Below are positions 57,734-63,346 of a stretch of DNA of 64,000 nucleotides, in pieces. Source of the DNA: Rhodopseudomonas palustris (lineage in GTDB: Bacteria; Pseudomonadota; Alphaproteobacteria; Rhizobiales; Xanthobacteraceae); NCBI GenBank assembly GCA_016215605.1, contig JACRJB010000054.1:1-64000 (forward strand). The letters are read 5' to 3'. The notes below the pieces were generated by a model. It was not told the origin of the DNA, did no database searches, and saw only the letters and a program-made list of their open reading frames with translations. A program made the position numbers and the translations under genes. Each line of letters opens with the position of its first letter. The stretch's first letter is position 1.

Positions 57734-57937
57734 TCAGAGTAAATCCTGGCCGTCGCCGCTCTGGCAGGACGGGCACTTGCAATTGTGGAAATTGACGTCG
57801 GTGGCGAGATATTCCTGGCCGCAATGGATGCAGGCGATCCGCAAATGCGGACGCTTGTCGGCGCTGACGGTGCGGTCGACCAGGTACTGCCCGAGCGAAT
57901 TCTGATCGCCGACGGCGACGTGATAGTTCGCGACCAT
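57734..57937 (-). CDS. Small zinc-ribbon protein
   Basis: 67 aa. Two CxxC knuckles: CIHC (about residues 36-39) and CPSC (about 55-58), with an extra Cys in HNCKCPSC, giving a likely zinc ribbon. The N-terminal part (MVANYHVAVGDQNSLGQYLV) is conserved-looking but unassigned. Possibly a small nucleic-acid- or protein-binding factor. Function unknown. Confidence 0.7.
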   Translation of the reverse strand: MVANYHVAVGDQNSLGQYLVDRTVSADKRPHLRIACIHCGQEYLATDVNFHNCKCPSCQSGDGQDLL

Positions 57938-58120
57938 AGCGTCCCCCGCATCTCGCGTCTGCGAGATATCCTAGCACACAGCCCGCGGGGGAAAGCAAAT
58001 GCGATCGTTGCGAGCGAATCGCGCTTATTGCTCCCGATCGGGTTCCATTCGGCTGGTCGCGACGCCCGCCGCAGCCTCGGCGGTATCCTGGCAAGGCTAC
58101 GGGATCGGTTCAGCCCGCGC

Positions 58121-59743
58121 TCATCGATCGGCGGCCTGCGCGCCGCGGCCGTTGTCGTCCAGTGCGCGGCGCAGCCGCCGGATGATCACGCTGCGGGCGC
58201 GGGCGTCGGCCGCCGCCTCGATGCGCTCGTTGATGTCGAGGATGAGCTTCGACATGTCGTTGTGCCAGTCGAGCTTGACCACGGCCTCCGGCTCGAGCCG
58301 CCGGCGATGCTTGCCGTCGAGCGGCGTCGGCACCGCGGCGGCGAGTTCGTAGACGTCGTCGAGCACCGGCTGGAAGATCTTCGCCGCCGGCAGCTCGCCG
58401 CCGCCGATCCGCTCGGCCAGCGCGGCGATCGCCGCTTCCTCGCCATGGGCGAGAAACAGACCGCGCTCGATCGGGCGCCGCGCGGTGATCCAGCGTGCCA
58501 GTTCGCCGGCATCGGCATGGCCGGAGTAATCGTCGATGCGGCGGATCTTCGCCTTGACCCGGATCTCCTCGCCCATGATCCGCACCGAGGTCGCGCCGTC
58601 TTCGAGGAAGCGGCCGAGCGTGCCGTGCGCCTGATAGCCCACCAGCAGCACGGTGCCGTTGCTGCGGCACAGCCAGCGCTTGAGATGATGGCGGATGCGG
58701 CCTGCGTCGCACATCCCGCTGGCGGCGATGATGATGTGGAAGCCGCTGAGCTTGGCGATCGCCTTGCTCTCCTCGACGGTCTCGGTGAAGCGCAGATGCG
58801 GCGACGCCAGCAGCCGCTCGACGTCGACGTCCTCGTCGAGATCGGCGGCGTGGCGGCGGAACACTTCGGTGGCGCGGATCGCCAGCGGCGAGTCGAGAAA
58901 GATCGGCGCCGACGGGATCGTGCCTTGCTGCATCAGGTCGATCAGATCGACGATCAGCTCCTGGGTCCGCTCGACCGCGAAGGCCGGGATCACCAGCGCG
59001 CCGCGCGCGGCGGCGGCGGCATTGACCTCCGCGGCCAATCGCTCATGGCGGAGCTGCGGTGAGGTCGGCTCGCGGGTGCGGTCGCCATAAGTGCTTTCGC
59101 AGATCACATAGTCGAAATGCGCCGGCGCCTCCGGATCGGGCTGCAGCAATTTGCCGTCGGGCCCGATGTCGCCAGAGGCGAGCACGCGCAGCGCCGAGGA
59201 CGAGCGGCCCTCGCCGGCGATCTCGATCTCGATCGACGCCGAGCCGAGCAGATGCCCGGCATTCCAGTAGCGGGCGCGGACGCCGGGGATCACGTTGGTC
59301 CAGGTCTCGTAGTCGACCGGCCGAAACGATTGCAGCGTTGCGATGGCGTCGGCCTGGGTGTAGATCGGGCTCACCTCCGGCCGGCCGCGCGCCGCATTGC
59401 GCCGGTTCAGCATGGTCACTTCGGACTCCTGGATGCTGCCGGCGTCGGGCAGCATGTAGGAGCACAGATCGATCGTGCCGCGGGTCGCGAAGATCGGGCC
59501 GGCGAAGCCCTCGCGCACCAGCTTCGGCAGCAGTCCGCAATGATCGATATGCGCATGCGTCAGCAGCACCGCGTCGATGCTCGACGCCTTGAACGGGAAG
59601 TCGCCGTAGTTCAGTTCCTTCAGCGTCTTCTGCCCTTGGAACAGGCCGCAATCGACCAGGAAGCGCTTGCCCTTGGTTTCGAACAAGTAACACGAGCCGG
59701 TGACGGTGCGCGCGGCGCCGCAGAATCGGATGGTGACGCTCAT
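58121..59743 (-). CDS. Beta-CASP metallo-beta-lactamase nuclease (RNA exonuclease-like)
   Basis: 540 aa. MBL motifs: THAHIDHCGLLPKL (HxHxDH), GHLLGSASIEIE, SGDIGPDGKLL. Beta-CASP motifs: FAVERTQELIVDL, SGMCDAGRIRHHL, and SGHADAGELARW near the C-terminus. A C-terminal extension carries KLDWHNDMSKLILDINERIE. The family processes or degrades RNA (CPSF73/RNase J-like; YSH1/MBL group). It overlaps the PRPP synthetase gene by 4 nt and closes a three-gene operon, where it could supply nucleotides from RNA. The start [11 protein letters not shown] has SD GGAGAG. Confidence 0.93.
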   Translation of the reverse strand: MSVTIRFCGAARTVTGSCYLFETKGKRFLVDCGLFQGQKTLKELNYGDFPFKASSIDAVLLTHAHIDHCGLLPKLVREGFAGPIFATRGTIDLCSYMLPDAGSIQESEVTMLNRRNAARGRPEVSPIYTQADAIATLQSFRPVDYETWTNVIPGVRARYWNAGHLLGSASIEIEIAGEGRSSSALRVLASGDIGPDGKLLQPDPEAPAHFDYVICESTYGDRTREPTSPQLRHERLAAEVNAAAAARGALVIPAFAVERTQELIVDLIDLMQQGTIPSAPIFLDSPLAIRATEVFRRHAADLDEDVDVERLLASPHLRFTETVEESKAIAKLSGFHIIIAASGMCDAGRIRHHLKRWLCRSNGTVLLVGYQAHGTLGRFLEDGATSVRIMGEEIRVKAKIRRIDDYSGHADAGELARWITARRPIERGLFLAHGEEAAIAALAERIGGGELPAAKIFQPVLDDVYELAAAVPTPLDGKHRRRLEPEAVVKLDWHNDMSKLILDINERIEAAADARARSVIIRRLRRALDDNGRGAQAADR

Positions 59744-60654
59744 GCTGATCTCTCCGGGGGCGTGCGGATTTCGCAGGCGAGCGCGTCGGCGAACAGGTCG
59801 TCGAGCGCAATCGCGTTGGTCGGATGCGGCACGGTGGTGGTGGAGCGGATCGAGCGGATGCCCGCCGCGGTGAAGGCGCCGATCATCTCGGCCGGAAACA
59901 GCGCGTGGGTGATCATCGCATCGACCGACGTCGCGCCGGCGGCGCGCAGCGCCTGCGCGCAGGTGATCAGTGTGCCGCCCGATGAGACGATGTCGTCGAC
60001 CAGCAAGGCCGGACGGCCAGCGATCAAACTGGGATCGTCGAAGACAATCTCGACCGAGCGATCGCCGCGGCGGATTTTTCGCGCGACCGCGGAGCCTGTG
60101 CCGATCAGCGTCGCCAGCGCCTCGACCCATGGCCGAGACTCGGCGTCGGGGCCGACCACGACCGTCGCCGGATCGAGCCCGCTGGCGCGTAGCGCCGCCG
60201 CGATCGTCGGCATCGCCGAAAGGTCGTCGGCCTCGATGCCCGGAAACACCTCGCCCAGCGTCGCGATGCGGTGCAGATGCGCATCGACGGTGATGACGCG
60301 ATCGACCAGCGAGGCCAGCAGCTTGCCGATCGCCTTCTGGCTGATCGCCTCGCCGGGGTGAAACGCGACGTCCTGGCGCATGTAGCAGAGATACGGCGCC
60401 AGCAGCACCAACCGGGTACAGCCACCGCGGCGTAGCGCTTCCGCCGCGAACAGGATCGTCAGCAATTTCTCGTTCGGCTGGTCGAGCGGCACGTACAAGA
60501 TCGTGGTCGGCGTCGCCGGCCCGATCGTCACCGCGATCTCGCCGTCGGGGAAGCGATGCTGCGCGATCGTGTGCACCGGCACGCCGAGGCGTTCCCCGAG
60601 CCGCTCGGCATCGGCGCGCGCCGCGGTGAGGCACTGGATTGCTGCAGTGCTCAC
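59740..60654 (-). CDS. prs: Ribose-phosphate pyrophosphokinase, archaeal (class III)-like
   Basis: 304 aa. PRPP-binding loop [17 protein letters not shown] is intact, and [12 protein letters not shown] is the usual early motif. The segment [20 protein letters not shown] matches the RQDxxFxPGEAIS form of archaeal class III enzymes rather than the bacterial class I loop. It makes PRPP from ribose 5-phosphate and ATP (class III also accepts ADP). GTG start overlapping the phosphorylase stop (GTGA). It is probably a second, specialised Prs, not the housekeeping one. Confidence 0.9.
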
Positions 60655-62195
60655 GACACCAGCTCCACCGCGGACGGCGTGTGGTGATTGATGGTGAAGC
60701 CGGAGTCCGCCTGCGCCGCGGCGACCGCGAGGTCGAATTCGGAGCGCTCCGACGCGTAGATCCGGTAGATCGCTTCGCCCTTGGCGGCGCGGTCGCCGAT
60801 CTTCTTGAACAGGTCGATGCCCGCGCCCTTGGCGAGCGGCGCGCCGGCGGTGCGGGCGAGGCGGTTGATACGCAGGCAGTCGATCGCGCTGACGATGCCG
60901 TCGTTCGGCGCCAGCACGTCGGCGGCGTGCGCGCCGAGTTCGGTGCGGCAGGTCGAGGGACCCTGCGCGTCGATGATCTGCTGCATCTTCTTCAGCGCCG
61001 CGCCGCTGTCGAGTAATTCCTTCGCGCGCGCGTAGCCGGCGCCGCCGCGCAGCTGCGGATCGTATTCGAGCAGATGCGCGGCCAGCCGCAGCGACTTCTC
61101 ACGCAGGTCCGCGGGCGCGCCCGGCTCGTTGCCGAGCACCGCCATCACGTCGCGCGCCTCCAGCACCGGGCCGATGCCGCGGCCGATCGGCTGGCGGCCG
61201 TCGGTGGTCACCACTTCGACCGCGATGCCGAAATGATCGCCGACGAATTCGAACAGCTTGCGCAGCCGCATCGCCTCGTTGGTGGTCGCCACCTTGGCGC
61301 TGGGCCCGACCGGGAAGTCGACCAACAGATGCGTCGAGCCGGCGGCGAGCTTCTTCGACATGATCGAGGCGACCATCTGCTCCGGCGTGTCGAGACTGAG
61401 CGGGCGCTCCACCGAAATCAGGATGTCGTCGGCTGGCGACAGATTGACGTGGCCGCCCCACACCAGACAGCCGCCGCAGCTGTGGACCACCTGCTTCATC
61501 TGCTCGACGTCGAGATCGACCCGCGCCAGCACCTCCATCGTGTCGGCGGTGCCGGCCGGCGAGGTGATCGCCCGCGACGAGGTCTTCGGGATCAGCAGGC
61601 CGTGGGCGGCGACGATCGGCACCACGATCATCGTGGTGCGATTGCCGGGGATGCCGCCGATGCAATGCTTGTCGACGACGATCGGATTGTCCCAACGCAG
61701 CTTGGTGCCGACCGAGGCCATCGCGCCGACCAGCGCCAGCAATTCCTCGGTCGAGGTGAAGCGCGCAGCGCTGATCAGGAAGGCGGCGATCTCCATGTCG
61801 GAGTAACGGAAATGCGCGATATCGCCGATGATCGCGGTGATCTCCGCATCCGTCAGCTTGCGGCCCTGGATCTTGGCGCGCACCGCATCCATGCTCGCCG
61901 GCGGCCGCGCCGGCGTCACCGTCACCGCGCTGCCGACCGGTTCGTTGAAGCGGCGGAATGCCGGCTCCGACAGGCCGAGTTCGCCGGGGCCGATCAGCGC
62001 GTCGTCGTCGGTGATCATCAGCGTCGCCAGCAGCACCTTCGAATTGATCCGCAGCTCGACGCGGCTGAAGCCGCGGAACACGTCGGCGTGCAGGGCGCGC
62101 GAGCGGCGCGAGATCACCGCGACGTTCTCGCGGCCGGTGTCGAGGCTGATCCGCCGGATCGTCAGCGGCGGGCGGGTGAGATCGGGGGCATTCAC
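60651..62195 (-). CDS. AMP phosphorylase-type nucleoside phosphorylase
   Basis: 514 aa, about 70 residues longer than bacterial thymidine phosphorylase. The extra N-terminal domain ([20 protein letters not shown]) and the core [20 protein letters not shown] / [20 protein letters not shown] match the AMP phosphorylase branch known from Thermococcus. That enzyme converts nucleoside 5'-monophosphates and phosphate to base and ribose 1,5-bisphosphate. It is commonly annotated as putative thymidine phosphorylase. GTG start at 62195. First gene of the operon, with a TTGACCGTGGTCAA box 112 nt upstream. Confidence 0.92.
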
Positions 62196-62306: not shown

Positions 62307-62320
62307 TTGACCGTGGTCAA
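62307..62320. promoter_or_regulatory. FNR/FixK-type box (site A)
   Basis: Perfect palindrome TTGACCGTGGTCAA, matching the Crp/Fnr consensus TTGAC-N4-GTCAA. It lies between the divergent phosphorylase operon (112 nt) and the DUF1858 gene (113 nt). Confidence 0.75.
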
Positions 62321-62432: not shown

Positions 62433-62684
62433 ATGCTCATTCACCGCACCAGCGTCGTCGAGGACGTGATGCGCGACTGGCCGGCGACGATCCGGACGTT
62501 TCTGGATTTCAAGCTGGCCTGTGTCGGCTGCCCGATCGCGACGTTTCACACCGTCGCGGATTCCTGCCACGAGCACGGCATCGACGAGGCCGCCTTCCTC
62601 GCCGCGCTACGCGCGGTGGTCGTGCGCGTCGTCGATCAGGGTTCTTTGCCGTCGGACGTCTGTTCGGCCAGCACCACGAGCTGA
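62433..62684 (+). CDS. DUF1858 redox-disulfide protein (hybrid-cluster-associated)
   Basis: 83 aa. The DUF1858 core has CVGCPIATFHTVADSCHEHG with a CxxC at residues 30-33. This domain is associated with hybrid-cluster (prismane) proteins and anaerobic metabolism and is thought to form a redox disulfide. Strong SD (AGGGAGAGG) before ATG 62433. It is flanked upstream by Crp/Fnr-type boxes. Its 3' end overlaps the convergent regulator gene by 49 nt. Confidence 0.9.
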   Translation: MLIHRTSVVEDVMRDWPATIRTFLDFKLACVGCPIATFHTVADSCHEHGIDEAAFLAALRAVVVRVVDQGSLPSDVCSASTTS

Positions 62685-63346
62685 TGCGGCTCGCGCAGAA
62701 CGATCTTCTGCCGGCCGCTCTCGATCAGGCCGCGCTGCTCCCACCCGCTGAGCAGCCGGCTGACGGTGTGCAGCGTGGTGCCGGTCATCTGCGCGATGTC
62801 CTGGCGGCTGATCGGGAAATCGATCTGCACGCCGTTCTCGACCTTGCGGCCGGATTGTTTGGCGAGTCGCAGCAGCGCGTGGGCGACGCGCTGCTCGACC
62901 TGCTGGGTCGACATTTCGATGACCCGCGAATGGGTTTCCTGCAGCCGGCTGCCGACCGTGCGCAGCGTGTTGGTGGCGAGCGACGGATATGTCTCCACCA
63001 GCCGCGGCCAGGCGGCGCTCGGCCACGCCAGCACGATGCTGTCGTCGACCGCGGTCGCGGTCGCCGGATAGCGTTGCAGCCCGATCGCCATCGCCACGCC
63101 CAGCGTCTCGCCGGGCGTGACGTAGCGCACCACGACCTGCTCGCCGGCCGGCGTCACCTTGCTGGCGCGGACATGGCCGTGCAGCAGCACGAAGAACGAA
63201 TGCGCGTCTTCGCCCTGCTCGAACACGTGCGCATTCTTCGGAACCCGCACCGACCGCGCCTCCTGCAGGATGGCGTCGAGCTCGTCGGCGGCCAGCCCGG
63301 CGAACAGCGGCAGCTTCGCGACGAGGGAGGTGTCGATGGTCGCCAT
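62636..63346 (-). CDS. Crp/Fnr-family transcriptional regulator without Fe-S cysteines
   Basis: 236 aa. Cyclic-nucleotide-like sensor domain (about 10-130: LPLFAGLAADELDAILQEAR, FFVLLHGHVRASKV), dimer helix, and a C-terminal winged HTH (DIAQMTGTTLHTVSRLLSGW). It has no cysteines where FNR carries its [4Fe-4S] ligands, so it is closer to FixK/DNR/NnrR regulators. The recognition helix reads T-LHTVSR, with His where FNR has Glu, which may shift its half-site preference. It may control the DUF1858 gene and nucleotide operon. Start MATIDTSLVAK at 63346. Confidence 0.93.
   Translation of the reverse strand: MATIDTSLVAKLPLFAGLAADELDAILQEARSVRVPKNAHVFEQGEDAHSFFVLLHGHVRASKVTPAGEQVVVRYVTPGETLGVAMAIGLQRYPATATAVDDSIVLAWPSAAWPRLVETYPSLATNTLRTVGSRLQETHSRVIEMSTQQVEQRVAHALLRLAKQSGRKVENGVQIDFPISRQDIAQMTGTTLHTVSRLLSGWEQRGLIESGRQKIVLREPHQLVVLAEQTSDGKEP

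Follow-up and report, generated by a model that had tools for sequence, protein, structure and literature searches.

What does a phosphorylase of the AMP phosphorylase type do beside a second phosphoribosyl pyrophosphate (PRPP) synthetase, and where does its product go? The question is raised by a three-gene operon in a 64,000-nucleotide stretch of Rhodopseudomonas palustris contig JACRJB010000054.1 (the whole stretch is called the window here), which runs on the minus strand from position 62195 down to 58121 and encodes, in order, the phosphorylase, a PRPP synthetase paralogue (Prs) and a beta-CASP nuclease. Ribose 1,5-bisphosphate (R15P) is an intermediate in archaea and a by-product of phosphonate breakdown, and PRPP is a building block for nucleotides and NAD. 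The operon probably encodes a nucleoside monophosphate (NMP) phosphorylase pathway with a different exit. We favour, and hold to be moderately probable, the reading of a low-oxygen-type operon that would salvage the ribose 5-phosphate part of nucleotides via R15P to PRPP, and not into RuBisCO. In this scheme the nuclease would yield, or accompany, RNA breakdown; the phosphorylase would convert NMP and phosphate to free base and R15P, a step for which an NMP-type active site and fusions to the R15P kinase PhnN argue strongly; R15P would reach PRPP through PhnN where it is present and/or through the partner Prs paralogue; and expression would be governed by a Crp/Fnr-FixK-type box, recognised here by sequence, whose working is supported for the Bradyrhizobium counterpart only.

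The operon is real and recurrent, not peculiar to one genome, and its relatives occur in many Proteobacteria. Within the window's class, 54 of 385 genomes encode the phosphorylase over cut-off. We compared 133 neighbourhoods, 53 of them (window included) from 52 of these 54 genomes and 80 from the nearest named relatives; the partial phosphorylase matches of G069 and G072 are not among these loci. In 95/133 the gene immediately downstream of the phosphorylase, in the same orientation, is Prs. Counted on any strand and at any distance within the examined stretches, 58 loci hold both Prs and nuclease; Prs is the sole partner in 38, nuclease in 19 and PhnN in 5, and 13 have none of the three. The nuclease gene stands either last, as in the window (phosphorylase-Prs-nuclease), or first (nuclease-phosphorylase-Prs). 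The Prs family PRK07199 is found over its cut-off of 322 in 29/54 phosphorylase-positive genomes and in 0/26 negative genomes, hand-picked from families that also contain positives (Fisher p 6e-7, kinship ignored); near-misses are one negative genome (G051, 312.2 bits) and one positive genome (G365, 302.6 bits).

The phosphorylase and its active site

In hmmscan searches the phosphorylase scores 707.7 bits against NF003338 (cut-off 434) and 692.8 bits against TIGR02645 (cut-off 434.6). The N-terminal domain that DeoA lacks is present, residues 11-502 matching positions 1-491 of TIGR02645; DeoA-type matches start at about position 88. The nearest solved structure by sequence is 4ga5 (345.5 bits), deposited as a 'putative thymidine phosphorylase', which we take to be the AMP phosphorylase of Thermococcus kodakarensis; TK0352 and PDB entries 4ga4-4ga6 presumably represent this same AMP/NMP phosphorylase. 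Public annotation labels members of the family 'thymidine phosphorylase' or 'thymidine phosphorylase family protein'.

We aligned 157 proteins: 110 from module loci (those in which Prs, nuclease or both lie nearby; the window protein is among them), 19 lone, 10 fused to PhnN, 6 archaeal and 12 DeoA-type; one locus with a phosphorylase piece shorter than 430 amino acids was left out. The lone group was set by clustering, and six of its members have Prs, nuclease or PhnN by BLAST, leaving 13. Following the UniProt entry, we take S194, T198, S199, D256 and K288 of the T. kodakarensis enzyme to be its AMP-contacting positions, and the window protein has equivalents of all five. Positions 194/198/199/288 read S/T/S/K in 110/110 module, 10/10 fusion and 6/6 archaeal proteins, whereas all 12 DeoA-type proteins read G/G/H/F. 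Likewise, position 256 is D in 110/110 module, 8/10 fusion and 6/6 archaeal proteins and E in 12/12 DeoA-type proteins. These residues point to an active site of the NMP type and not of the thymidine type, so that the label 'thymidine phosphorylase' is probably wrong. With the T. kodakarensis AMP/NMP phosphorylase and the archaeal NMP shunt, as set out in excerpts of PMC9700705, the window protein shares its family, AMP-site residues and N-terminal domain, and R15P is the product to be expected.

In a phylogenetic tree of 100 sequences with SH-like approximate likelihood ratio (SH-aLRT) support only (every module member of the class survey, 24 drawn at random from the named members, the complete lone and fusion sets, the 6 archaeal and 7 of the 12 DeoA-type proteins), a branch with 100% support separates the DeoA-type from the AMP-phosphorylase-type sequences. 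The 87 bacterial sequences group together (93%), with the 6 archaeal ones (82%) alongside, and the window protein falls among Nitrobacteraceae; its nearest named relative, at 89% identity, is the phosphorylase of Rhodopseudomonas sp. B29. Because the window protein is nested among proteobacterial sequences, in a group sister to the archaeal ones, this limited sample, in which five of only six archaeal sequences come from haloarchaeal plasmids, gives no indication of a recent transfer from archaea, and we do not support one. The description 'archaeal-like' in the first-pass annotation of this DNA holds for the active-site residues and, in this sample, not for descent, the phosphorylase lying in a proteobacterial group.

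The proposed fate of ribose 1,5-bisphosphate

PhnN takes R15P as substrate and gives PRPP as product, according to excerpts of PMC11452294 and PMC9700705. When we searched 80 genomes with the PhnN model TIGR02322 (cut-off 156), three matches shared one open frame with the phosphorylase; by translation and hmmscan these are continuous proteins with an N-terminal PhnN (164-192 bits) and the phosphorylase behind it. A plasmid search added fusions in Variovorax sp. SRS16, Pacificitalea manganoxidans and Paraburkholderia sp. 22B1P, two annotated as 'phnN' only and one without annotation, and a search of 398 genomes across the phylum added four more; in these seven the PhnN part was recognised by a BLASTP match, of 134-171 bits and 42-46% identity, to a single fused PhnN domain. 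All ten (loci L090, L091, L096 and L215-L221) form one clade (100%) within the bacterial phosphorylases. Two further loci carry a PhnN gene adjacent to the phosphorylase gene and divergent from it. In all, 12 related loci join the phosphorylase to, or set it next to, an enzyme of the E. coli PhnN type, which performs the proposed step from R15P to PRPP; the window operon has a Prs-family protein instead. Further, none of the 96 Prs-containing loci holds a PhnN-like open reading frame (more than 45 bits to one fused PhnN domain). Of the evidence gathered here, fusion to an R15P kinase speaks most clearly for R15P as the product of these phosphorylases and for PRPP as its destination, and this is, judged from sequence, most likely the case. 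It also favours the first-pass proposal that sugar phosphate returns to PRPP. Long frames at L060 and L222, considered as possible fusions, were rejected on finding no PhnN match.

All ten fusion genes lie directly downstream of nadC, several of them with TRAP-TAXI or Bug/TTT-type transporters, and NadC is found near the phosphorylase in 3/133 surveyed loci, which are exactly the three fusion loci of that survey. The nadC product uses PRPP, and NadC and the fusion protein could form a PRPP-recycling cycle (quinolinate to nicotinate), or the fusion could feed PRPP to NadC. The bug27-nadC-phnN neighbourhood of PMC11452294 is of the same kind as the fusion loci, with Variovorax in both; the available text of that paper treats phnN as PhnN only, and the word 'phosphorylase' is absent from its main text.

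Local adjacency and fusion are the only PhnN evidence we count. Whole genomes show no enrichment of PhnN alongside the phosphorylase (15/54 positive versus 7/26 negative genomes), and we discarded co-occurrence at that scale as support. The first-pass annotation had named PhnN and an E2b2-like R15P isomerase as enzymes to look for in the window genome. One PhnN is present, in a phn locus beside phnM with phnH further upstream; of three frames near phnM at L097, two tried as additional phn genes gave no match and the third is PhnH. No R15P isomerase passes the TIGR00511 cut-off there, nor in any of the 54 phosphorylase-positive genomes. Because PhnN does not reach its cut-off in 23/29 PRK07199-positive genomes and isomerase is found in 0/54, both known takers of R15P are missing from those 23 genomes and the Prs paralogue is left as a candidate to take it; the search covered these two known takers, not phosphatases or others.

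This paralogue scores 386.4 bits against PRK07199 in hmmscan. It had been described as archaeal class III-like, and the FxPGEAIS loop is indeed shared; yet it reaches only 162.1 bits against the archaeal-type PRK00934 (cut-off 296), and it belongs to PRK07199. By sequence its nearest solved structure is the archaeal Prs 1u9y (103.1 bits). A housekeeping Prs is encoded elsewhere in the window genome, with 383.5 bits to TIGR01251 and 496.1 to PRK01259. We compared 82 PRK07199 proteins (81 of 88 cluster members, those of 270-345 amino acids, plus the window protein) with 11 housekeeping Prs. H126, K193, R195, D220 and D221 are invariant in 82/82; since we take H126, K193, R195 and the VDD PRPP loop to be the catalytic residues of PRPP synthetase, PRK07199 is not a dead enzyme by that test. 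By contrast, positions uniform in the 11 housekeeping proteins are altered: G172 to E in 82/82 and G173 to S in 76/82, within a stretch (170-173) that is presumably the pyrophosphate loop, and further D224 to S in 82/82 and R176 to W in 78/82. The housekeeping A-G-Q at 127-129 (G at 128 in 10/11) is L-H-R in 82/82, and just 23/82 retain the second G of the GGT motif. The window protein itself has E172/S173, L127-H128-R129, W176 and S224 where housekeeping Prs have G/G, A-G-Q, R and D. Compared with the known Prs classes (class I housekeeping, archaeal class III and the several new bacterial classes defined in excerpts of the preprint PMC13252144), it is alike in catalytic residues and has the class III-like FxPGEAIS loop; the word 'phosphorylase' is absent from the main text of that preprint.

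Because Prs and PhnN swap as partners of the phosphorylase, we infer that the Prs paralogue could carry out R15P + ATP to PRPP, which would make it the functional counterpart of PhnN in most of these operons. That it takes R15P itself is a tentative proposal from sequence, and we would sooner doubt it than rely on it. Just as speculative is the wider picture of a proteobacterial nucleotide-to-PRPP shunt, in which a neofunctionalised PRK07199 would turn phosphorylase-made R15P straight into PRPP, replacing PhnN, while in the related clade the PhnN fusion with NadC would run the quinolinate-to-nicotinate cycle or recharge PRPP for NAD synthesis.

Probable low-oxygen control and the competing explanations

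The single exact TTGAYN4RTCAA palindrome of the 64 kb stands 112-125 nucleotides upstream of the phosphorylase start (Table 1); 0.15 are expected per window, and at least one appears in 15/100 shuffles. Among 95 loci in which the phosphorylase gene comes first, 10 have an exact box upstream and 35 have one when a single mismatch is allowed; dinucleotide shuffles give 0.09 and 2.4. Boxes are also frequent in the regions upstream of 1210 other open reading frames of these loci (71 exact, 151 with at most one mismatch), so the box is only partly specific to the module, which sits in Fnr-rich islands.

Expression data exist for Bradyrhizobium diazoefficiens bll3117-bll3116-bll3115, which encode the same three kinds of protein in the same order as the window operon. 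In the available excerpts, these genes are raised under microoxia at the RNA and protein level (PMC6515984), and deletion of fixK2 lowers bll3117 6.6-fold and bll3115 30.6-fold; the genes are predicted to form an operon, and a putative FixK2 box, ATGATCTGGGTCAA, lies at -74 (PMC9104804). That same box occurs upstream of the phosphorylase in the Bradyrhizobium loci L111 and L114; the window box differs from it in sequence and stands further upstream. We equate the two operons by gene order and by 74-76% identity of the window phosphorylase to other Bradyrhizobium phosphorylases, bll3117 itself being unaligned. The window operon is probably regulated by oxygen. The first-pass suggestion of an energy-starvation route is not borne out, since the published Bradyrhizobium data, as excerpted, show low-oxygen induction and not energy starvation as such. 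Both papers publish the genes as expression data, and their available text proposes no function.

A rival destination, which the first-pass annotation raised as a possible ribose-to-carbon-fixation route, is the archaeal one: an isomerase would convert R15P to ribulose 1,5-bisphosphate for the phototroph's own RuBisCOs to fix. An NMP-phosphorylase-type enzyme is present, as are a form II RuBisCO (906.8 bits to PRK13475, cut-off 489) and a large subunit that scores 803.9 bits to PRK04208 and that we read as form I type. However, besides the missing isomerase, the sole IF-2B-family protein of the window genome is MtnA, encoded next to methylthioadenosine phosphorylase (410.7 bits to TIGR00512; 143.2 to TIGR00511, cut-off 314.1), and 0/4 of its RuBisCO-family proteins (contigs C67, C64, C25 and C33, loci L001-L004; two of the four are RuBisCO-like) pass the form III model TIGR03326. 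With neither isomerase nor form III RuBisCO over cut-off, we reject the archaeal route into RuBisCO, to which we give very little credence. Relative to the archaeal NMP shunt in excerpts of PMC9700705, the window system differs further in its Prs-family and nuclease partners and in its separate bacterial group in the tree. A humbler possibility is ordinary nucleoside salvage, with the phosphorylase as the organism's thymidine or pyrimidine-nucleoside phosphorylase and Prs as an extra, ordinary PRPP synthetase. Public annotation agrees with this, as does the score of 496.1 bits against the AMP_phos equivalog TIGR03327 (hmmscan), below the cut-off of 535, on account of which we file the protein under the TIGR02645 subfamily and not the archaeal equivalog; the window genome has no second DeoA-like protein, only a partial 23.8-bit match, which leaves room for a nucleoside role here; and the kept catalytic residues make ordinary activity of Prs on ribose 5-phosphate (R5P) possible. 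Yet the module proteins have NMP-type and not DeoA-type residues without exception, at least 21/54 phosphorylase-positive genomes already carry a separate DeoA-type protein (hand count), and fusion to an R15P kinase would be senseless for a nucleoside phosphorylase because its product is ribose 1-phosphate. We consider nucleoside salvage quite unlikely.

Alternatively, the phosphorylase might clear AMP made by Prs, or Prs might run backwards (PRPP + AMP to R5P + ATP; the PRPP synthetase reaction can reverse), balancing ATP and AMP at low oxygen with R15P as a by-product or signal. Low-oxygen induction of the Bradyrhizobium counterpart in the excerpted data would fit such a role, as would the intact catalytic residues of the Prs paralogue, the 4-nucleotide coupling of the genes, and the P-type ATPases, PEP (phosphoenolpyruvate) synthase, universal stress protein and Fnr-like regulators encoded nearby. 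It leaves unexplained both the PhnN fusions and why Prs and PhnN were not seen together in any surveyed locus, and we think it improbable. Findings also weigh against salvage via R15P to PRPP, among them the AMP_phos score below cut-off, the lack of a second DeoA-like protein in the window genome, the catalytic residues kept by Prs and the even genome-wide distribution of PhnN. Lone proteins keep the AMP-site residues incompletely (S194 in 12/19, T198 in 15/19, S199 in 17/19, D256 in 10/19 and K288 in 15/19); two of ten fusions are without the D256 equivalent, and the L217 and L221 fusions have no recognisable N-terminal phosphorylase domain. The nuclease is missing from the examined stretch in 56/133 loci, and in 13/133 Prs, nuclease and PhnN are all lacking. 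Nor can the loci count as independent: 80/133 are nearest relatives of the window protein, and at least one pair (L065 and L174) is identical. In its excerpts, PMC6515984 puts bll3117-3115 outside the direct FixK2 regulon of 2008, records no induction in bacteroids, and places them in a list with a laxer threshold rather than in the core microoxic proteome.

If salvage to PRPP is nonetheless what these genes do, R15P would gain a mainstream role in Proteobacteria, the widespread 'thymidine phosphorylase' label would be corrected, and an operon whose part in the microoxic response of Bradyrhizobium has lacked an explanation would acquire a function; the role of a second, divergent PRPP synthetase would become directly testable with three small enzymes. 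In literature outside subscription papers, we found nothing on AMP phosphorylase with PRPP synthetase in bacteria, on PhnN with thymidine phosphorylase, or on bacterial nucleoside monophosphate phosphorylase.

Gene layout, nuclease and neighbours

The three genes overlap by 4 nucleotides at each junction, as read from the sequence: GTGA at 60654-60651 between phosphorylase and Prs, and ATGA at 59743-59740 between Prs and nuclease. These junctions and the profile matches confirm the first-pass description of an AMP-phosphorylase-type, a Prs and a beta-CASP gene overlapping in this way, and the phosphorylase and Prs motifs it quoted are present. An alternative upstream in-frame start for the nuclease runs into the Prs gene.

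Table 1. Features of the operon and its upstream region in the window
Feature	Position	Strand	Basis
NMP (AMP)-phosphorylase-type protein, 514 aa	60651-62195	-	TIGR02645/NF003338 over cut-off, AMP-site residues, tree
Divergent PRPP synthetase paralogue (PRK07199), 304 aa	59740-60654	-	Profile match, residues; E172/S173 where housekeeping Prs have GG
Beta-CASP metallo-beta-lactamase-fold nuclease, TTHA0252/aCPSF1-like	58121-59743	-	Profile and domain matches
FNR/FixK/NnrR-type palindrome	62307-62320	no strand	Between the phosphorylase gene and the divergent DUF1858 gene
Hybrid-cluster-protein-associated DUF1858 protein, 83 aa; divergent neighbour, may share the box	62433-62684	+	Profile/domain matches
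Crp/Fnr-family regulator; may be the regulator of the box	62636-63346	-	Profile/domain matches

The nuclease has Lactamase_B, Beta-Casp and RMMBL domains, and its nearest solved structure by sequence is the TTHA0252 RNase (250.7 bits), with whose metal-binding motifs its HAHIDH (HxHxDH), GHLLGS, GDIG, ESTYGDR, SGHA and HGEE line up. Although it is like TTHA0252 and aCPSF1/FttA in domains and metal-binding motifs, it lies below the aCPSF1 equivalog cut-off (251.7 versus 580.2 bits), and its match to that model begins only at position 175. About 180 nucleotides behind the nuclease gene and on the same strand, a small Cys-rich reading frame (57755-57943, CIHCG...CKCPSC) could belong to the transcript. 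Upstream, relatives of the Crp/Fnr-regulator and DUF1858 genes also precede the phosphorylase in Rhodopseudomonas sp. B29 (L103).

Other neighbours recur around the family. Phosphorylase genes without Prs, nuclease or PhnN (L085-L089, L092-L095) occur in alphaproteobacterial genomes of 1.4-2.3 Mb, and in L092, L093 and L095 an Hsp70-like gene (cluster c6) lies near the lone phosphorylase. In Bradyrhizobium L108, L109, L111, L114, L115 and L146, a cluster c19 gene stands upstream of the phosphorylase; in L111 it is identified as bacterial Ku, of non-homologous end joining. An enzyme of the MbnB/TglH/ChrH type, which modifies ribosomally synthesized and post-translationally modified peptides, recurs with DUF2063 and DoxX proteins beside the module in L061, L062, L069 and L083. 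On a Legionella anisa plasmid (L255:78-7538), a phosphorylase-Prs pair lies directly upstream of an alternative F1F0 ATPase operon, which hints at a setting of energy or ion stress.

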